Positions 8,556 to 20,784 of a DNA stretch of 64,000 nt are shown here, piece after piece. This DNA comes from a virus. Every line of letters begins with the position of its first letter. The first letter of the stretch is position 1. A program made the translations under genes and the position numbers. Under the pieces are notes generated by a model. That model saw nothing but the letters and a program-made list of their open reading frames with translations. It searched no databases and was not told the origin of the DNA. Location: positions 1 through 64,000 of IMG/VR virus record IMGVR_UViG_3300044631_002648; one strand, written 5' to 3'.

Positions 8556-8612
8556 CCACTTTGCTGTAAGATTTTGCACATGGCTGGAGACAGCCCCCTT
8601 ACCGAGGAAACC

Positions 8613-8852
8613 ATGCATCGCCCTTACGACGGCCACAAGGAATCGTCCTATCTGGCCAAGCTTGAAGCAGATCGCCAGGCCCAGCTTTCTGGCTATGGGG
8701 TTCGTCAATATCTCTGTGCAGATGGCTCTCGCAAATGGGAAGCCTATGGTTGGGAGCGCATCACTGAGCTCCAAGTTCATTACACCAGCTATGGCATATA
8801 TGACCATATGTGGCAAGCTGAGCAATTCTTCTACAACATTATCCACGCTTGA
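8613..8852 (+). CDS. 79-aa hypothetical protein
   Basis: ATG 8613 follows GAGGAA at a good ribosome-site distance; earlier in-frame starts at 8574 and 8580 lack one. The sequence MHRPYDGHKESSYLAKLEAD leads to an aromatic-rich C-terminus (HYTSYGIYDHMWQAEQFF). The function is unknown. Confidence 0.6.
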   Translation: MHRPYDGHKESSYLAKLEADRQAQLSGYGVRQYLCADGSRKWEAYGWERITELQVHYTSYGIYDHMWQAEQFFYNIIHA

Positions 8853-9226: not shown

Positions 9227-9532
9227 ATGCGCTTCATTTGCAATTACAACGACAACGGCCCTTATTTCGGCGTCACTCAAGGACAATATCAAGCAGTTTC
9301 CTTGAAGGAGCTTCTGATGCACGTTCGTACATGCATGGAAGATAGTGACCAGGCCATTGCAGTGTTTGATGATGATTCTGAATGCCTTGGCATGTGGCTT
9401 GATGAATCAGAGCCAGTAGACGATGGGGAGGGCGGAATGATGCTTGGCAGGCCAGTTTATTGCTTCTATAGGCCTGGCTCAATGAGCGAAGGGATGTGGA
9501 AGCGCCATTTGAAGCATTTCAAGAGGCCGTGA
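9227..9532 (+). CDS. 101-aa hypothetical acidic protein
   Basis: The product MRFICNYNDNGPYFGVTQGQ has a beta-rich start, an acidic middle (DDDSECLGMWLDESEPVDDG) and a basic end (MWKRHLKHFKRP). The gene follows the TATATA array. Its stop overlaps a GTGACAATG junction with the next gene. Confidence 0.6.
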   Translation: MRFICNYNDNGPYFGVTQGQYQAVSLKELLMHVRTCMEDSDQAIAVFDDDSECLGMWLDESEPVDDGEGGMMLGRPVYCFYRPGSMSEGMWKRHLKHFKRP

Positions 9533-9534
9533 CA

Positions 9535-9693
9535 ATGATTCTCATTGATTTCTTTTCTGAAGCTGCTTGCAAAGGCACTGAACTTATTGAAGGATGGTAT
9601 TACTATGCGGATGATGATGATTCTTTCATCGGCGGACCATTTCTAGATGAAGAAGCTGCCATAAAGGCAGCTTTTGATGGTCATGGATGGTAA
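9535..9693 (+). CDS. 52-aa acidic protein
   Basis: ATG 9535 (or the overlapping GTG 9529) gives MILIDFFSEAACKGTELIEG. The sequence contains YYYADDDDSF and a repeated acidic-aromatic pattern. An AGAGG lies 8 bp before the ATG. It is the last gene before the control region at 9.7 kb. Confidence 0.55.
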   Translation: MILIDFFSEAACKGTELIEGWYYYADDDDSFIGGPFLDEEAAIKAAFDGHGW

Positions 9694-9752
9694 TTAATAT
9701 TGCAGCTTTTTATTAAATAGATAATTAATTTTTATTATTTTTTTAAATAATT
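9694..9752. other. AT-rich tract
   Basis: These 59 bp are almost all A and T (for example TTTTTATTATTTTTTTAAATAA). They directly precede three tandem iteron-like repeats. This layout is typical of a DNA-unwinding element beside initiator sites. Confidence 0.55.
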
Positions 9753-9753
9753 G

Positions 9754-9821
9754 GGACTTGGCAAAAAGCGGTAAAGGACTCGCTGAAACGCGGTATAGGG
9801 ACTTGCTAAAACGCGGTATAG
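9754..9821 (+). repeat. Three tandem 22-23 bp iteron-like repeats
   Basis: Copies begin at 9754, 9776 and 9799 and follow GGACTYG(G/C)YRAAAMGCGGTAWAG. They are head-to-tail, about two helical turns apart, next to the AT-rich tract. The best reading is initiator binding sites of a replication origin; an operator array is the alternative. Confidence 0.65.
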
Positions 9822-9855
9822 TAGAAGCGCTTTAGAGGGCGCCCGCGATCCGCGC

Positions 9856-9945
9856 CGCTAGTACGCCTGTACTACCGCTAGTACGTTTCTACTACCCTGA
9901 TGATGAGAATCATTCTCAATAGGCGAGCCAGTACGTTTGTACTAC
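9856..9945. repeat. Three AGTAC inverted-repeat operators
   Basis: AGTAC-GCCT-GTACT (from 9860) and AGTAC-GTTT-GTACT (from 9929) are perfect inverted repeats. The copy between them (from 9879) has one arm altered. The first two form 19-bp direct repeats CCGCTAGTACG-N6-CTAC. A dimeric regulator is the likely reader. Confidence 0.55.
9899..9918. promoter_or_regulatory. Near-consensus Fur-box palindrome
   Basis: TGAGAAT-C-ATTCTCA (9904-9918) is a perfect 7-1-7 inverted repeat. The 19-mer from 9899 matches the classic Fur box GATAATGATAATCATTATC at 16 of 19 positions. A half-conserved second copy, TGAGAATCAGTCGCA, lies at 9994-10008. Both are followed by AATAGG(C/A)GAGCC. Confidence 0.5.
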
Positions 9946-9953
9946 TATGTCTT

Positions 9954-10047
9954 TATGCGCATACACGCATACCCGCATAGGCCTAGTTGCAAGTGAGAAT
10001 CAGTCGCAATAGGAGAGCCTGAGAAGCTATGCGCCTATGCGCATAGC
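9954..10047. repeat. TATGCGCATA palindromes at the left border of the island
   Basis: TATGCGCATA (9954-9963) is a perfect 10-bp palindrome. GCTATGCGC-CTAT-GCGCATAGC (10026-10047) is a 9-bp inverted repeat. Similar CGCATA units recur beyond the other border near 14104-14175. Confidence 0.5.
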
Positions 10048-10125
10048 GGCATTGTTAAGAGAGATGTGACAATCCGCGAGGCGATGCCTCCCGCTCGCTC
10101 TCCTTGTCTGTATTGTCTCTGGCAA

Positions 10126-10137
10126 GGCCGCGAGGCC
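10126..10137 (+). promoter_or_regulatory. GCGA-loop hairpin in first island leader
   Basis: GGCC-GCGA-GGCC, extended by one A-T pair, lies 21 bp before the ATG at 10159. The pyrimidine tract CTCTCTGTTCTC follows. GAGGC-GAT-GCCTC at 10077-10089 lies just upstream. Confidence 0.45.
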
Positions 10138-10158
10138 TCCTCTCTGCTCTCTGTTCTC

Positions 10159-10524
10159 ATGCTCGCTCCTTCTCTCAGGGCTCCCTCCTTCCCTCCCCTC
10201 TCTGACGCGCTCGAGGCGCTCGCCTCTCTGCCATGGGAGCGGATCGCCTCTGCTGCTCTCGAGGCGCTCCTGTTCTCTGTGGCTCTCTGCCACGCTCTCG
10301 CCGCTCGCCTCTGGCGCGAGCGAGGCCGTCTCTCTCCCTTCCTTCGCGCTCTGGCCTCCTGGCTCGAGCGCCTCGCCTCAGCTCTGCCCGAGCCTCTCTC
10401 CTCTGCCTCCCCTCGCGCTCTGCTGATCGAGGCTCTGATCGAGGCAGGCGAGAGCTCCTCCTCTGTGGCGAAGGCCTCCCGCTCTGCTCTCCTTCGCCGC
10501 GCCTCTCGCCTCGGCCTCCTCTGA
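10159..10524 (+). CDS. Island gene 1, hydrophobic-helical protein
   Basis: ATG 10159 gives 121 aa (MLAPSLRAPSFPPLSDALEA). Its start context TCTGTTCTCATGCTC recurs before other island genes; the frame is open to a GTG at 10066. The sequence is dominated by Leu, Ala, Ser, Arg and Glu, with a hydrophobic LEALLFSVALCHALAARL stretch. Glu is encoded only by GAG here. No family is recognised; the strong base bias makes low-complexity protein unavoidable. Confidence 0.5.
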   Translation: MLAPSLRAPSFPPLSDALEALASLPWERIASAALEALLFSVALCHALAARLWRERGRLSPFLRALASWLERLASALPEPLSSASPRALLIEALIEAGESSSSVAKASRSALLRRASRLGLL

Positions 10525-10538
10525 GGCTATGCTCTGCA

Positions 10539-10556
10539 GGAGGCCGCGAGGCCTCC
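10539..10556 (+). promoter_or_regulatory. Perfect 7-bp GCGA hairpin before island gene 2
   Basis: GGAGGCC-GCGA-GGCCTCC ends 26 bp before the ATG at 10583. The stem buries a GGAGG that could otherwise serve as a ribosome site. Confidence 0.5.
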
Positions 10557-10582
10557 CCTCTCTGTTCTCTGCTCTGGTTCTC

Positions 10583-10816
10583 ATGCTCCGCTCTGCTCTC
10601 GCCGCTCTGGCTCTGTTCGCTCCTGCCTCGGCGCTCGCTTCTCCTCTGATCGTTGCTCCTCACGAGCCGATGGTTCGCCTTGAGGCTCTCCCTCACCTCG
10701 GCGCCTCTCGCTTTTCTACTGTTCAGCATTGTCTCTCTGTGGCAGAGGCCGAGCTCTCTCTGATCACCGATAGCGAGCTCGAGACGGTCGAGGCCTGCCT
10801 CCTCGAGCACACGTGA
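10583..10816 (+). CDS. Island gene 2, small secreted protein
   Basis: ATG 10583 gives 77 aa with a signal-peptide-like start (MLRSALAALALFAPASALAS). The mature part is less biased (HLGASRFSTVQHCLSVAEAE), which argues that it is a real protein. The ATG is in the same TTCTCATGCTC context as island genes 1 and 6. The function is unknown; export to the periplasm or membrane is inferred. Confidence 0.55.
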   Translation: MLRSALAALALFAPASALASPLIVAPHEPMVRLEALPHLGASRFSTVQHCLSVAEAELSLITDSELETVEACLLEHT

Positions 10817-10871
10817 GGCGCTCGCCTCCTGGCTCCTTCCGCTCCTGCCTCCCTCTCTCGCTCTCCTTCCT

Positions 10872-11066
10872 ATGTCGACTCACGAGCTCCTCGCCTCTGA
10901 TCTCTCATGGCCTCGGTTCTCCTTCTCCTCTCGCCGTGAGGCCGCTCTGTTCGCTCGCGAGCTCGAGGAGGAGCTCGCCTCCCCTTCGCTCTCTCCTGCC
11001 GCTCGAGCCGAGGCCGAGGAGGCGCTCGAGGAGCTCCTCTCCCTCCTGCTCTCTCCCGTCTCCTGA
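10872..11066 (+). CDS. Island gene 3, acidic helical protein
   Basis: The 64-aa product (MSTHELLASDLSWPRFSFSS) continues into a Glu- and Ala-rich helix (RELEEELASPSLSPAARAEA). GAGGC-GCTC-GCCTC forms a hairpin at 10815-10828 upstream. No family is recognised. Confidence 0.5.
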   Translation: MSTHELLASDLSWPRFSFSSRREAALFARELEEELASPSLSPAARAEAEEALEELLSLLLSPVS

Positions 11067-11075
11067 GGCTCTGCC

Positions 11076-11360
11076 ATGCTCTCCCCCTCTGAGCTCGCCT
11101 CGCTCTGCTCTGCCGTAGAGAGCGAAGGCCGCGAGCTCTCCCCCTCTGAGCTCGAGGCTATTCTCGCGCTCCCTCCTCGCTCTGGGCTCTCCCCTCTCGA
11201 GAGGCGCCTCGCCGCGATCGAGCGCCTCCTCCCTCGCCTCTCTGGCGAGGCCGAGGAGCGCCTCCTGAGAGAGAGGCGCTCCCTCCTTCGCCTTCGCCAT
11301 GGCATCCCCCTGGCGATCGAGCTCCCGCTCTCCTTCTCTGCTGCTGATCTCTCCTCCTGA
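11076..11360 (+). CDS. Island gene 4, helical protein
   Basis: The 94-aa product starts 9 bp after the previous stop (MLSPSELASLCSAVESEGRE). It contains two SPSEL repeats (residues 3-7 and 22-26) and basic-acidic helices such as ERRLAAIERLLPRL. Function is unknown. Confidence 0.5.
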   Translation: MLSPSELASLCSAVESEGRELSPSELEAILALPPRSGLSPLERRLAAIERLLPRLSGEAEERLLRERRSLLRLRHGIPLAIELPLSFSAADLSS

Positions 11361-11371
11361 GGCTCTCTCTC

Positions 11372-11539
11372 ATGCTCCCCTCCTACCTACGGGCTCGGCT
11401 CCTCGATCGCGCCGAGGAGCTCGGCCTCGCCTCCTCTGGCCTCCCCTTCCTCCTCGAGGAGCTCGCTAGGTGGCTCCCATCCCCCACGATCGAGGCCTTC
11501 CTCTCTGATCTCGAGGAGCTCTCCTCTGCTGATCTCTGA
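11372..11539 (+). CDS. Island gene 5, 55-aa helical protein
   Basis: ATG 11372 lies 11 bp after the previous stop in a CTCTCATGCTCC context and runs to TGA at 11537-11539. The product (MLPSYLRARLLDRAEELGLA) is an amphipathic, Leu- and Glu-rich helix. It fits the tandem spacing and dialect of its neighbours. Confidence 0.5.
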   Translation: MLPSYLRARLLDRAEELGLASSGLPFLLEELARWLPSPTIEAFLSDLEELSSADL

Positions 11540-11542
11540 TCG

Positions 11543-11561
11543 CGGATTGTTACGGATTGTT
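11543..11561 (+). repeat. CGGATTGTT direct repeat
   Basis: Two copies of CGGATTGTT, starting at 11543 and 11553, lie between island gene 5 and a terminator-like palindrome. They are among the few A/T-containing words in the island. Confidence 0.4.
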
Positions 11562-11568
11562 TCAACCC

Positions 11569-11597
11569 AGGAGGCAGGCTCGAGCCTGCCTCCTTTT
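11569..11597 (+). terminator. 26-bp perfect palindrome followed by T-run
   Basis: The 26 bp from 11569 to 11594 are perfectly self-complementary around CTCGAG, then TTT follows. As RNA this gives an 11-bp stem with a minimal loop. It probably ends the first island transcript, with five genes before it and six after. Confidence 0.65.
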
Positions 11598-11619
11598 CAT
11601 GCTGTAGGATCTCGTGCAT

Positions 11620-11637
11620 GAGGCGAGAGATCGCCTC
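11620..11637 (+). promoter_or_regulatory. Perfect GAGA-loop hairpin before island gene 6
   Basis: GAGGCGA-GAGA-TCGCCTC is a 7-bp stem closed by a GNRA-type loop. It ends 21 bp before ATG 11659 and is followed by the same CTCTCTGTTCTC tract seen before island gene 1. Confidence 0.5.
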
Positions 11638-11658
11638 GCTCCTTCGCTCTCTGTTCTC

Positions 11659-11898
11659 ATGCTCCGCTCTGTTCGCGCTCTCGCTCCTACGCTCGCTCTG
11701 TTCGCGGGCTCTGTAGCTTTCGGCCTCTGTGCCGCCACATACGGCAATCGCATCTCTCTGGCTCCTTCCGCTCAGGCCGCCGCTCCCTTCGCCGCTCCTT
11801 TCTCTCTGTTCGCCTCTGCCACTGCGGCCTCCTTCGCTCTCGCCGCTGCGGCCTCCTGCGACGCTGCTGAGAAGCTCTCGCGCTCCGCTCGCTCCTGA
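11659..11898 (+). CDS. Island gene 6, membrane or secreted protein
   Basis: ATG 11659 gives 79 aa. The N-terminal segment APTLALFAGSVAFGLCAATY looks like a signal anchor, and a second Ala/Phe-rich hydrophobic stretch follows. It shares its leader and start context with island gene 1. The frame extends upstream to 11614, but that start would include the hairpin. The function is unknown. Confidence 0.5.
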   Translation: MLRSVRALAPTLALFAGSVAFGLCAATYGNRISLAPSAQAAAPFAAPFSLFASATAASFALAAAASCDAAEKLSRSARS

Positions 11899-11957
11899 GC
11901 TCCTGGCCTCCCCCTCCCATGGGGGGAGGCCTTCTCTCTGTTCGCCTCGCTCCTGCC

Positions 11958-12125
11958 ATGCTCTCTCGCTCTGATCTGATCGCTCTCCTCGAGCTCCTCG
12001 AAACCTCCGCTGCTCTCGAGGCAGAGCTCAACCATTTCTTTCCCTCCCTTTTCGAGGAGGCCTCTTTCCTTCTCAGTCTTGCTGAGCGCGTCTCGCTTGA
12101 GCTGAACACTAGGTTCCCTCTCTGA
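11958..12125 (+). CDS. Island gene 7, 55-aa helical protein
   Basis: ATG 11958 gives MLSRSDLIALLELLETSAAL and ends LELNTRFPL. It is acidic and helical, with more normal residue variety (NHFFPSLFEEASF) than its neighbours. A long hairpin GGCCTCCCCC/GGGGGAGGCC (11905-11931) lies upstream. Confidence 0.5.
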   Translation: MLSRSDLIALLELLETSAALEAELNHFFPSLFEEASFLLSLAERVSLELNTRFPL

Positions 12126-12134
12126 GCTCCTCTC

Positions 12135-12353
12135 ATGCTCTCCTCCCCTTCCATCGATCGCGCCTCTGACGCCGCGCCTCTGCTCTCCCTCCTCGCGCTC
12201 TCGCGAGGCCTTCGCCTCGCCTTCGATCGTGGCTCCTACCTGCTGATCGAGACGGCCTCCCCCTCGATCGCTCACGAGAGCCAGAGCCTGCCAGAGCTCG
12301 AGGCCTTTCTCCTCTGGCTCCCTCTCGCCTCTGCCTCTCTGCTGCTCTCCTGA
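12135..12353 (+). CDS. Island gene 8, 72-aa protein
   Basis: The product starts 9 bp after the previous stop (MLSSPSIDRASDAAPLLSLL) and contains a RLAFDRGSYLLIETASPSIA segment with beta character, then a hydrophobic C-terminus. No family is recognised. Confidence 0.5.
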   Translation: MLSSPSIDRASDAAPLLSLLALSRGLRLAFDRGSYLLIETASPSIAHESQSLPELEAFLLWLPLASASLLLS

Positions 12354-12367
12354 GCTCTCCCTCTCAT

Positions 12368-12385
12368 GGCCTCCGCGAGGAGGCC
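12368..12385 (+). promoter_or_regulatory. Perfect GCGA hairpin before the 371-aa gene
   Basis: GGCCTCC-GCGA-GGAGGCC is a perfect 7-bp stem 29 bp before ATG 12415. It is the mirror arrangement of the hairpin before island gene 2. A C/T-rich leader separates it from the start. Confidence 0.5.
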
Positions 12386-12414
12386 TCCCCTTCCCCTCCT
12401 TCTCTGCTGATCTC

Positions 12415-13530
12415 ATGGCTCCCGCTCTCCTGGCTCCTCCCGCTCCCGTCTCCCTCTCTCGCGCTCCTCGAGCGCCTCAGGAGCTCCGCTCCTTCCTTTC
12501 TAGGTTCGGCCTCTCCCTAGAGAGCCTCCTCACCTCAGGCTCTGCTAATGCGAAGCTCGCGAAGGGGAGCGGCCTCGCCTTCTCCTCGATCCTGCATCTC
12601 CTCCCCTCTCGCGGCCTCGCTCGAGCCGTCTCCCCTGGCTCCCATGCCTCTCCCGTGAGAGGAGAGCTCCCTGGCCTCCGTGCTCTCGCTGATCGCGAAG
12701 GCCTCACCGCTCGCGCTCTCCTGTTCGATGCCTGCCCCTTCGCCTCCGAGGCCTGCCGCGAGCTCTGCCTCGCCTTCTCTGGTCATGGCGGCATGAGCCA
12801 GAGCGTAGGAGCCTGCAGGGCTCGGCGCTCGCTCGCGCTCCTCGCTGATCGTGAGGCCTTCGCTCGCTCTCTCCTATGGGCAATCGGCCTCTCCTACCGC
12901 AAGGCTCGGCGCCTCGGCCTCCCCTTCGCGCTCCGTCTCAATGGAACCCAGGAGCTCCCTTGGACTGAGGCCTGGCTCTCTGTTCGCCTCTCTCGTGAGG
13001 AGGCCGAGGCTCTCTCTGCTCTGTTCGATGCTCCCATCCCTCAGGGCATCCGCACCATCCCCGAGGCGCTCGCCTCTGTGCCCTTCCTTGAGCTGTACGA
13101 CTACGCGAAGGCTCCTGTGTACGGACGCTCTGGCCTCCTCGCCATGAGGCAGGCAGGCATTCACACCACGGCCTCCCTCGCTGCTGATCGTGAGGGAGGA
13201 GCCGCTCGCGCTCTGGATGCAATTGAGGCGGGCTTCTCTCTGGCAGTGCCGATCCTGGCCAGCAAGGGAGAGGAGCTCCCGCGCTCCCTCCTCCTCAGAG
13301 ATGACAATGGGAGAGAAGCTCTCCTGCAGTGCATCGATGGGGACGCGAATGATCTCAGGATGCTCGATCCTTCGCCCGCTCCTGGCTTCTCTGGCCTCGC
13401 CGTTCTCCTCCGTCTCAAGCGATCGAGAGGAGCCGATCCCTCCGCGGCCTCTCGCTTCGCTCTAGCTCCTGGCTCTGGCGCCTTCGCTCCCATGGCAGGA
13501 GGCGGCTCTTTCGCTTTCTCTCGCATTTGA
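12415..13530 (+). CDS. Island gene 9, phage Cys-motif protein (GP88/DUF7227-like)
   Basis: This 371-aa protein is the only island product with clear family-type motifs. C107-x6-C114-x3-C118 (CPFASEACRELC) is followed by C134, a conserved-looking LRLNGTQELPW at 173-183, and FLELYDYAKAPVYG. From memory this order of motifs resembles uncharacterised phage families such as GP88/DUF7227, in which a Cys cluster precedes an R(L/I)xGxxD-type strand; the assignment needs a profile search. The cysteines could bind iron-sulphur or zinc. Normal residue variety shows selection on the protein despite the extreme base bias. It may be the catalytic member of the island. Confidence 0.75.
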   Translation: MAPALLAPPAPVSLSRAPRAPQELRSFLSRFGLSLESLLTSGSANAKLAKGSGLAFSSILHLLPSRGLARAVSPGSHASPVRGELPGLRALADREGLTARALLFDACPFASEACRELCLAFSGHGGMSQSVGACRARRSLALLADREAFARSLLWAIGLSYRKARRLGLPFALRLNGTQELPWTEAWLSVRLSREEAEALSALFDAPIPQGIRTIPEALASVPFLELYDYAKAPVYGRSGLLAMRQAGIHTTASLAADREGGAARALDAIEAGFSLAVPILASKGEELPRSLLLRDDNGREALLQCIDGDANDLRMLDPSPAPGFSGLAVLLRLKRSRGADPSAASRFALAPGSGAFAPMAGGGSFAFSRI

Positions 13531-13560
13531 GAAGCTCTCCTCACCCTGAGGCTCCCTCCC

Positions 13561-13794
13561 ATGGCTCTCCCCTTCTCTCTCTCTACCGTCACAGAGTACG
13601 GTCACACTGAGGAGCTAGCCTCCTTCGCCTCCCTCGAGGAGGCAGAGGAGGCGCTCTCCTCCCTCTACGATGCTCTCGAGGAGGCCTCCTCCTCTCGAGC
13701 CTTCTCTCTGCAATCCGCGATCAGCGAGCTCGAGGAGCAACTCTCAGAGGCTCGCCTCTGCGCAGAGGCAGAGGCAGAGGAGGAGGCCTCCTAG
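13561..13794 (+). CDS. Island gene 10, acidic coiled-coil protein
   Basis: The 77-aa product begins with a beta-like MALPFSLSTVTEYGHTEELA, then has a long acidic helix (EEAEEALSSLYDALEE, ISELEEQLSEARLCAEAEAE). All Glu codons are GAG. It lies 30 bp after the Cys-motif gene and could be its partner; this is inferred from position only. Confidence 0.55.
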   Translation: MALPFSLSTVTEYGHTEELASFASLEEAEEALSSLYDALEEASSSRAFSLQSAISELEEQLSEARLCAEAEAEEEAS

Positions 13795-13795
13795 G

Positions 13796-14035
13796 ATGCC
13801 CCTCCTCCTCCCCCTCCCCTCCATAGGCTCCCGCTCCCTCCTCCTAGTCTCTCGCTCCTCCCCTCGCCTCCCCCTCCTCGCCTCCTTCGCCTCCTGGCGA
13901 TCGAGAGAGGCAGGATGGCTCGGCCTCCTCTCTCTTCGCCTCCCTGGCCTCTGGCTCCTTCGCCTTCGCTCCCTCCCATCCCGTGAGAAGCTCGATAGGC
14001 TCGGCCATGGCGTAGGGTCTAACTTCCTTCCATAG
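13796..14035 (+). CDS. Island gene 11, Leu/Arg-rich protein
   Basis: ATG 13796 follows the previous TAG by 1 bp and gives 79 aa (MPLLLPLPSIGSRSLLLVSR). Leu, Ser, Arg and Pro dominate. The C-terminus (EKLDRLGHGVGSNFLP) is more ordinary. It may be real, or an open frame permitted by the base bias. Confidence 0.4.
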   Translation: MPLLLPLPSIGSRSLLLVSRSSPRLPLLASFASWRSREAGWLGLLSLRLPGLWLLRLRSLPSREKLDRLGHGVGSNFLP

Positions 14036-14066
14036 CCTCTCTCAAGGCCTCAGAAGCTCCTCTCAG

Positions 14067-14097
14067 AGCCCGCTCTCCTTCCATAGGATGGCGGGCT
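14067..14097 (+). terminator. Probable terminator at island end
   Basis: AGCCCGC (14067-14073) pairs with GCGGGCT (14091-14097), with a smaller internal pairing, followed by TCTCTG. It lies 31 bp after the last island gene. Confidence 0.5.
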
Positions 14098-14103
14098 TCT
14101 CTG

Positions 14104-14175
14104 TATGCGCTCCTATGCTGCCACACGCATAGAGGGCAACTGGGGGATTATCCCCTATTCGCATAGGCGCATAAC
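14104..14175. repeat. CGCATA-rich right border and GGGGA inverted repeat
   Basis: The stretch holds TATGCGC, CACGCATAG, GGGGA-TTA-TCCCC (14143-14155), TTCGCATAGG and CGCATAACGC. These mirror the TATGC/GCATA elements at the left border of the island. Confidence 0.45.
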
Positions 14176-14218: not shown

Positions 14219-14371
14219 TCAGTCTAGAGGGATCTCTAGGGCCTCGAGCTCGCTGATCATGCTGCGTACGCTGCTGATCATGCTTTCGAGGCGCTTCTCG
14301 CTCTCCTGGTGGCGCTTCTCGAGCTCTGCGAGCTGAGCGGCGAACAGGTCGGCGATCGAGGGGGAGGCCAT
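14219..14371 (-). CDS. 50-aa coiled-coil mini-protein in island dialect
   Basis: ATG at 14369-14371 on the minus strand encodes MASPSIADLFAAQLAELEKR, then two MIS repeats with Glu-rich heptads (ESMISSVRSMISELEALE). It is a short coiled coil. Codon use (GAG, CTC, GCC, AGC) matches the island although the gene is antisense to it. It ends just before a bidirectional terminator. Confidence 0.6.
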   Translation of the reverse strand: MASPSIADLFAAQLAELEKRHQESEKRLESMISSVRSMISELEALEIPLD

Positions 14372-20641: not shown

Positions 20642-20690
20642 ATGCTGTCCCCGTTCCGTGACAGCGAGTCATGCGCCCTGTCGCCAGGGT
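20642..20690 (-). promoter_or_regulatory. Two-hairpin leader between tRNA and mini-gene
   Basis: On the minus strand CCCTG-GCGA-CAGGG (20676-20689) and GCTGTC/GACAGC follow the tRNA and precede the YRGVxY gene. The first loop is a GNRA tetraloop. The tRNA and mini-gene may share a transcript that is cut here. Confidence 0.45.
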
Positions 20691-20711
20691 GAACGTACCT
20701 TTAGTGTATCA

Positions 20712-20784
20712 AGCCCCCGTCAGGAATTGAACCCGACTCTCCGCTTTACAAGAGCGGTGCATCGCCACTGAATGCTTCAAGGGC
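20712..20784 (-). tRNA. tRNA-Thr (anticodon UGU)
   Basis: The 73-nt cloverleaf has acceptor GCCCTTG/CGGGGGC with two G-U pairs, D-stem GCAT/ATGC, anticodon stem CCGCT/AGCGG with loop CTTGTAA, a 4-nt variable loop, and T-arm TCGGG-TTCAATT-CCTGA. The anticodon TGT reads ACA and ACG-type Thr codons. CCA is not encoded. It is the only tRNA seen in the window. Confidence 0.9.

Follow-up and report, generated by a model that had tools for sequence, protein, structure and literature searches.

A lineage-specific short-word vocabulary in an exchangeable gene cassette of S-CBS4-like picocyanobacterial phages

Within the window analysed here (64,000 nucleotides, positions 1 to 64,000 of IMG/VR virus record IMGVR_UViG_3300044631_002648), about 4 kb is written in an A-poor vocabulary of CTC and GAG words. 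The phage is a virus of picocyanobacteria and kin of Synechococcus phage S-CBS4 (TerL 97%). How did such a segment come to stand among ordinary phage genes, and what maintains its vocabulary? Composition islands are usually taken as recent imports, but this extreme one has persisted while its synonymous sites were rewritten. Our main reading, which we put at roughly 40%, is an accessory cassette wired to host stress, with a pressure at the nucleic-acid level that travels with the cassette and maintains its words. Unlike its exchange, the cause of the dialect is something we infer.

Composition and genes of the island

Bases 10066–14035 comprise A.102, C.406, G.245 and T.247; the remainder of the window has.250/.232/.258/.259. 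The sliding-window statistics called for in an earlier note on this DNA bore out its claim of an abrupt change at ~10.06 kb: the step is sharp at both borders (about 10.07 kb and 14.1 kb), is complete within about 100 bp, and the flanks are normal. The hand count in that note for 12181–12240 (28 C, 16 T, 13 G, 3 A) was exact. Its description of T as nearly always flanked by C, and of A as nearly always beside G or within GATC, captured a real preference but was too strong: CTC accounts for 48.5% of T (4.6% elsewhere), GAG for 37% of A and GAT for 12% (6.5 and 6.7% elsewhere). CTC or GAG occurs once per about 6 bp, and 1067 of the 4096 hexamers are present, compared with about 2250 in equal-length stretches elsewhere. 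The short palindromes said to be frequent are indeed so, at densities per kb of 6.5 for GAGCTC (0.2 elsewhere), 5.5 for CTCGAG (0.03), 4.3 for AGGCCT (0.35) and 2.25 for CGATCG (0). Single codons dominate, with CTC making up 72% of Leu, TTC 86% of Phe and GAG 89% of Glu codons (38–40% in flank and core genes); the preference for GAG and the richness of the products in Leu, Ser, Ala, Arg and Glu had both been recognized previously.

About eleven tandem genes had been proposed. Eight of these ORFs have orthologues, with pN/pS of 0.09–0.59, whereas ORF 11919–12125 is unsupported as a gene (pN/pS 1.05) and ORFs 13561–13794 and 13670–14035 overlap and are uncertain (Table 1). The mostly non-coding tail closes at the right border with a GCCCGC...GCGGGC hairpin and TTCTCT. 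The 50-aa gene on the opposite strand is counted in the unit; its fraction of AG+GA+CT+TC is 0.40–0.44 in 11 of 14 loci, compared with 0.25 elsewhere in the phage.

Table 1. Features of the leader, island and right border (window coordinates)
Feature	Position	Strand	Remarks
Leader: intergenic, hypervariable, with an array of operator-like boxes; precedes cassette	9694–10055		in relatives, enriched in iterated palindromes (LexA, Fur-like and others)
Putative LexA (SOS) box AGTACGCCTGTACT	9860–9873	+	matches RGTACNNNDGTWCB
Putative Fur-like 7-1-7 box TGAGAATCATTCTCA	9904–9918	+	
Putative LexA box AGTACGTTTGTACT	9930–9943	+	
Palindrome CTATGCGCCTATGCGCATA	10027–10045	+	imperfect inverted copy at 14152–14173, past right border
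Operator/promoter-like element GTTAAGAGATGTGACAATCCG, left border	10056–10076	+	
152-aa protein, no assigned family	10066–10524	+	orthologues in 24 loci, median pN/pS 0.49
Dialect segment D1 (CTC/GAG vocabulary)	10073–14102	+	maximum-scoring dinucleotide segment
95-aa protein, no assigned family	10529–10816	+	three further loci, pN/pS 0.09
64-aa protein, no assigned family	10872–11066	+	17 loci
94-aa protein, no assigned family	11076–11360	+	19 loci
55-aa protein, no assigned family	11372–11539	+	23 loci, pN/pS 0.35
Border element, second copy GTTACGGATTGTTTCAACCC	11549–11568	+	dialect briefly broken here
Terminator-like hairpin GGAGGCAGGCTCGAGCCTGCCTCC then TTTT	11570–11600	+	judged from sequence; palindrome I17
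94-aa protein with hydrophobic stretch	11614–11898	+	20 loci
72-aa protein, no assigned family	12135–12353	+	10 loci, pN/pS 0.27
371-aa GP88-family protein	12415–13530	+	PF17338 E 5e-11; phrog_1617 E 1e-25
77-aa ORF, uncertain but probably coding	13561–13794	+	weak phrog_3550 match; 13 other loci, pN/pS 0.59
Tail, mostly non-coding, very strong dialect	13795–14102	+	A 10%, C 45%
50-aa gene past right border, same word bias	14219–14371	-	14 loci including window

Pfam and PHROG profile searches of the island proteins gave a confident family for gp88 alone, and PADLOC defence models matched none of the 10 island proteins searched. The 371-aa product is a member of the GP88 family and of the Gp37/Gp68-like phage proteins; it passes the PF17338 gathering cut-off (43.2 bits versus 24.4), and C107-x6-C114-x3-C118 is invariant in the gp88 alignment. 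Selection at the protein level, proposed on the grounds of family-like motifs, is thus upheld. The predicted fold is TIM-barrel-like (pLDDT 80). A fold search with this model returned no PDB match at E below 0.001, its matches being phage GP88 and Gp37/Gp68-like proteins only, none of them solved. Unlike the island gene, gp88 relatives at 25–32% identity, at this locus and in Xanthomonas/Stenotrophomonas phages, are of ordinary composition.

Exchange and persistence at one locus

A search of related phages, as had been recommended, found the island at the same locus in about 29 other metagenomic contigs, with normal flanks and a gp88-family protein 59–100% identical; those bearing gp88 number 28 besides the window. 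The locus is bounded by the gene at 9496–9693 and by RNR, and its contents differ among close relatives. Cassettes with gp88 carry D1, a CTGGCC dialect (D2), ordinary composition, or a GC-rich type of its own (L319) whose bias is phase-dependent; a cassette without gp88 has a GGAAGCT dialect (D3) that is not A-poor throughout, and some relatives carry no such segment. The vocabularies clearly distinct here thus number three, plus the GC-rich gp88 type. Four relatives (L084, L085, L086 and L090) have the same flanks as the window and alternative contents; the RNR of the window is 94% identical to that of the D2-bearing L084 and 93% to that of the island-less L085. On the gp88 tree, the normal, D1 and D2 types form one clade each and require two dialect changes, the minimum, while on the RNR tree dialect is scattered (17 changes versus a minimum of 4), which indicates that dialect belongs to an exchangeable cassette and not to the phage backbone. 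These comparisons make the island a cassette exchanged among members of this phage group. With its single gene family and three or more vocabularies, the locus is a natural experiment on short-word maintenance.

In distant D1 pairs the mismatch at fourfold sites is 0.3–0.45, against a context-conditional ceiling of 0.45, and these near-saturated synonymous sites show no drift back towards phage composition. On this alignment evidence, the dialect is conserved while synonymous letters have turned over. The divergence of gp88 correlates with left-flank divergence (Mantel r 0.52, p 0.001) but not with right-flank divergence (r 0.06).

The earlier note had raised transfer from a different replicon. 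Recent transfer from a compositionally distant genome, with amelioration still pending, would account for the sharp borders, the alien composition and the imperfect inverted repeats outside the borders. As in a recent island, the contrast with the core is sharp; the limited divergence, or amelioration with age, expected of one is not seen. Some 30 divergent phages have the island at this single locus, gp88 diverges in step with the left flank, and the dialect was kept as fourfold sites neared saturation; no donor appeared in the gp88 profile search, in the IMG/VR scan or among the genome matches listed. This explanation is largely refuted, and we give it hardly any weight. Persistence, together with other vocabularies on near-identical backbones, contradicts simple amelioration, and backbone mutation bias is separable from whatever shapes the cassette.

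Alternatively, cassettes might evolve mostly outside these phages, in a satellite, a plasmid, a host lineage or another phage group, and enter the phages repeatedly; replication of that other replicon would impose the context-dependent mutation bias. Cassettes do shift between backbones, their spacers are the most extreme parts, as expected under mutation pressure, and D2 and the L319 type look like GC-rich genomes. However, a profile search of 84,980 genomes of bacteria and archaea found no gp88 relatives, and dialect-word scans of IMG/VR placed D1 in these cassettes only, the other matches examined being single and in GC-rich sequence. When the genome collection was scanned for dialect words, none of the matches listed was a true D1 segment; they were mostly GC-rich chance matches, and the one D1-like candidate (L199) is a long coiled-coil gene. 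The tracking of the left flank by gp88 also speaks against such a reservoir, which we regard as conceivable but unlikely. Our literature search found no paper on such dialects.

Word bias, coding and copying

Dinucleotide odds in the three codon phases of the island are.49/.31/.21 for AC,.22/.34/.30 for GT, 1.9/2.1/2.0 for GA and 1.6/1.5/1.6 for TC, and the bias is strongest in the spacers (A 0–13%, C mostly 44–65%). Since the bias is alike in all phases and peaks outside genes, the dialect is not codon usage. Adaptation of codons or amino acids, for instance to a few favoured host tRNAs or to low-complexity helical proteins, would fit the single dominant codons and the Leu/Ser/Ala-rich products; the equal bias across codon boundaries and in spacers, and flanking genes that are already C/T-rich at fourfold sites yet lack the dialect, make it quite improbable.

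Protection of the transcript, by which an A-poor, pyrimidine-rich mRNA escapes RNases or R-loops, agrees with the promoter-like element and terminator-like hairpin at the borders. Yet the opposite-strand gene past the terminator uses the same words, the odds pattern is largely preserved on reverse complementation (r 0.65), and D3 cassettes are not uniformly A-poor; we consider this account improbable. Special RNA structure was rejected, stability against dinucleotide shuffles being z -0.7 in the island and -1.0 in the flank.

Repeated dispersed 12-mers reach 1.6–5 times the Markov-4 expectation, with a greater excess of 15- and 18-mers in several islands, and the adjacent leader has iterated motifs. 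Self-templated copying (slippage, micro-duplication or local conversion) could therefore homogenize the vocabulary of each cassette. Against it, close island pairs differ mostly by point substitutions and by few duplications, and substituted 9–13-mers find matches in other parts of the island at no higher rate than a local 5-mer model predicts (9-mers, 389 observed versus 423 expected), leaving it very improbable. Diversity-generating retroelements mutagenize adenines, and a loss of A from the coding strand is likewise found here; in contrast, the island proteins are conserved (pN/pS below 1) and D3 does not share the A loss throughout. A Pfam scan of ten genes around the locus found no reverse transcriptase.

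Cyanobacterial HIP1 and Neisseria DUS dialects also comprise short words far above chance in lineage-specific versions. Those words are genome-wide, whereas the island words are very dense and confined to one cassette. HIP1 itself (GCGATCGC) is absent from both the D1 island and the rest of the window, and occurs at 1.5–1.7 per kb in the L319 type.

The leader and a proposed source of the vocabulary

Perfect cyanobacterial LexA boxes number 19 in 24 kb of leader region and 0 in 307 kb elsewhere; Fur-like boxes in relatives occur at 0.74/kb upstream of D1 islands versus 0 in 193 kb elsewhere. Both sit directly upstream regardless of cassette type. In the window, AGTACGCCTGTACT is one base off the Synechococcus WH8102 recA site CGTACGCCTGTACT, and AGTACGTTTGTACT one base off the CC9902 recA site CGTACGTTTGTACT, both listed in PMC3091678. 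Such a leader suggests a tie between the cassettes and host stress. Forms akin to the left border element (GGATTGTnnCAATCC) stand 12–17 bp ahead of the island in some ten relatives, and several islands contain them as well; as a strict regulon motif this element is weak, because its enrichment is only 2.7-fold.

The exchange shown above makes the island an accessory-gene cassette with a fixed place in S-CBS4-like phages of picocyanobacteria. We hypothesize that its expression is controlled by the SOS and iron regulators of the host, or by their titration. The constraint on vocabulary would act on nucleic acid at a scale of 2–5 bp and move with the cassette, the amino acid richness of the proteins being a probable by-product. 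Its most likely form would be selection keeping the cassette DNA or RNA rich in words that one factor handles and poor in others. This factor would be specific to the cassette lineage, possibly a cassette-encoded or host-subgroup protein that binds, modifies or cleaves; family and defence-model searches of the island proteins found no factor reading the words. It also tells against this reading that D2 and the GC-rich L319 type may show no more than a likeness to the codon usage of GC-rich hosts. The data may fit a cassette-confined mutation bias as well as selection; the unusual mutation pressure considered earlier would have to be confined to the cassette and keep the dialect on different backbones. 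A doubtful further step is that each cassette carries a self-identifying vocabulary, by which a cassette-specific factor tells its DNA or RNA from any other nucleic acid in the cell. If so, dialects would diverge by co-evolution of cassette and factor, and sequence content would serve as a self/non-self code that needs no single recognition site.

Accessory ('moron') or hypervariable cargo loci of tailed phages share the fixed locus, swappable small genes, core-gene flanks and own leader; we know of no cargo locus with its own stable short-word vocabulary per cassette lineage, spacers included. The putative LexA and Fur-like boxes recall LexA- or Fur-regulated accessory genes of phages and prophages. 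The island differs from these in that its boxes form a dense array, which changes fast and includes other iterated boxes too.

The 'complete' record of S-CBS4 is split exactly at this locus; dialect DNA may defeat assembly and annotation.

Composition and word bias of the island

The earlier note had described an abrupt change in coding-strand composition, and composition statistics over the window confirmed a sharp step. The short-word vocabulary, or dialect, of the island (D1) is more than A-poverty: in each of the three codon phases, AG, GA, CT and TC occur more often than base content predicts, and AC, GT, TA and TT less often. Base content is strand-asymmetric (plus strand C-rich, A-poor), words and their reverse complements are largely alike (r = 0.65 over trinucleotides), and the dialect is stronger in spacers than in genes. 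Fourfold sites are already C/T-rich in the flank genes, one of which (Table) has strongly C/T-biased third positions yet is dialect-free. The island differs in that its bias extends to codon positions 1 and 2, which alters the amino-acid make-up as well (Leu 19%, Ala 16%, Ser 13%; Lys 1.5%, Asn 0.7%, Val 2.2%).

Alternative cassettes at the locus

A search with the downstream gene, RNR, retrieved 80 loci. Upstream of RNR, as far as the homologue of gene 9496-9693, contents vary among close relatives (Table).

Table. Cassette types and other features (gp88, gene of a 371-aa GP88-family protein; L-numbers, related loci).
Feature	Coordinates	Content
Flank gene	window 8574-8852	fourfold sites A 6, C 54, G 5, T 34%
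Leader	window 9694-10055 and corresponding leaders of related loci	cyanobacterial LexA (SOS) boxes, Fur-like 7-1-7 palindromes, TATGCGCATA, GATACGTATC, GATCATGATCA
D1 cassette	window 10073-14102, plus	CTC/GAG words
gp88 of D1	window 12415-13530	
D2 cassette (L084, L099, L101, L108, L140, L148, L154-156)		CTGGCC/GGCC words; TG odds 1.9, TC 0.5; gp88 48-52% identical to the window's
D3 cassette (L160; more weakly L147)	L160 2880-4640; L147 4400-6300	GGAAGCT/CTTCC words; proteins other than gp88
Ordinary-composition cassette		gp88 of 25-31% identity
No such segment (for example L085)		
Partial stretch in L115	2.9-4.5 kb upstream of RNR	CTCTC-rich, without gp88
Direct repeats in L014	~330 bp upstream of island start (6490)	TTAACC
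Tandem repeats in leader of L160	L160 2370-2520	~7 copies of 24-bp unit GGTGATGCTCACTGTCCCGCGCCA
Riboswitch aptamer	window 20642-20784, minus	glutamine-II type

In the D3 cassettes of L160 and L147 gp88 was not found, and no other relative of the larger D3 protein of L160 was found in IMG/VR. A search with D2 gp88 gave 39 loci, including a GC-rich type with abundant CGCC and GATC (L319, L320, L324), tentatively placed at the locus via the adjoining minus-strand gene; its word bias depends on codon phase, and its composition may be ordinary GC-rich codon usage. The stretch in L115 is perhaps a remnant or a young D1-like island. A Euryarchaeota MAG contig (L199) was rejected as a D1 relative: it contains a long coiled-coil-type region, unrelated to the phage, whose amino-acid make-up accounts for its D1-like dinucleotides.

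In the gp88 tree, D1, D2 and normal types form one clade each, with the minimum of 2 changes; when cassette type is mapped onto the RNR tree, 17 are required (minimum 4, shuffled mean 25.9), and the nearest RNR relatives of the window are D2-bearing (L084) and island-less (L085). The dialect therefore follows the cassette and not the backbone, which rules out a backbone-wide mutation bias as its cause. Swappable cargo is already known as a locus type; stable cassette-bound vocabularies are apparently undescribed, as far as can be told from a search of open papers.

Persistence of the dialect and its possible cause

A gp88 search of IMG/VR gave 33 loci, 29 of them (59-100% identical, two partial) in islands of this kind whose flanks are normal; one more island, truncated (L069), came from a word scan. 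Pairs of these phages have diverged about as much in island proteins (median amino-acid divergence 0.28) as in flank genes (0.32-0.40), and in distant pairs the fourfold mismatch nears the local-context ceiling (island 0.45; flanks 0.62-0.65), so letters have been replaced while the vocabulary was retained. Distances in gp88 correlate with left-flank distances (r = 0.52, p = 0.001) and not with right-flank ones (r = 0.06), as would be expected if recombination breakpoints were frequent between island and RNR.

An agent keeping the dialect would have to be carried along with the cassette and act at a scale of 2-5 bp in genes and spacers; it would have to act on both strands, because in 11 of 14 phages a minus-strand 50-aa gene past the right border uses the island vocabulary. 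Tests gave no support for internal copying as a source of the dialect. We tentatively favour selection that keeps words on which a cassette-specific factor acts (probability about 0.4), although mutation bias confined to the cassette could give the same picture; a mutation regime within an unseen reservoir comes second and is less likely. D1 and D2 share gp88, which has an invariant C-x6-C-x3-C in the alignment and a predicted TIM-barrel-like fold; a role as an Fe-S or radical-SAM-like protein would be a guess. As a general cause of dialects gp88 is ruled out, since it also exists in ordinary composition and D3 lacks it.

Borders, leader and the relative S-CBS4

The left border coincides with the element GTTACGGATTGTTTCAATCC, a form only moderately enriched, with further copies inside several islands; the right border, in the window and several relatives, falls at a GCCCG...CGGGC hairpin with a pyrimidine tail. 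Upstream of the island lies the leader, a fast-changing box array. With the LexA consensus RGTACNNNDGTWCB and Synechococcus recA sites as reference (PMC3091678), 27 relatives with cassette types other than D1 contain 19 perfect LexA boxes in 24.3 kb of leader versus 0 in 307 kb elsewhere. Judged from these sequences, the leader is a property of the locus, independent of cassette type, and its boxes could serve regulation by host repressors or titration of them. In L014 the TTAACC run, resembling tandem cyanobacterial Pho boxes, stands in place of the LexA boxes, with Fur-like boxes kept.

A named relative of the phage is Synechococcus phage S-CBS4 (TerL 96.9%), colinear with the window around the locus at 79-87% DNA identity; the other relatives, apart from remote gp88 phages, are metagenomic contigs. 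The record of S-CBS4 (HQ698895.1, linear, labelled complete) ends at the position matching window 9429 and starts at that matching window 16344, so that the missing part is exactly the island locus. The absence may reflect a deletion, the ends of the genome or a gap left open in the assembly, and the published isolate may carry an unsequenced cassette. Contig breaks in relatives also concentrate on the island side of RNR: 21 contigs are long downstream and broken <5 kb upstream of it, and 4 have the opposite pattern. The phage also carries a riboswitch aptamer beside a tRNA-Thr gene (Table).
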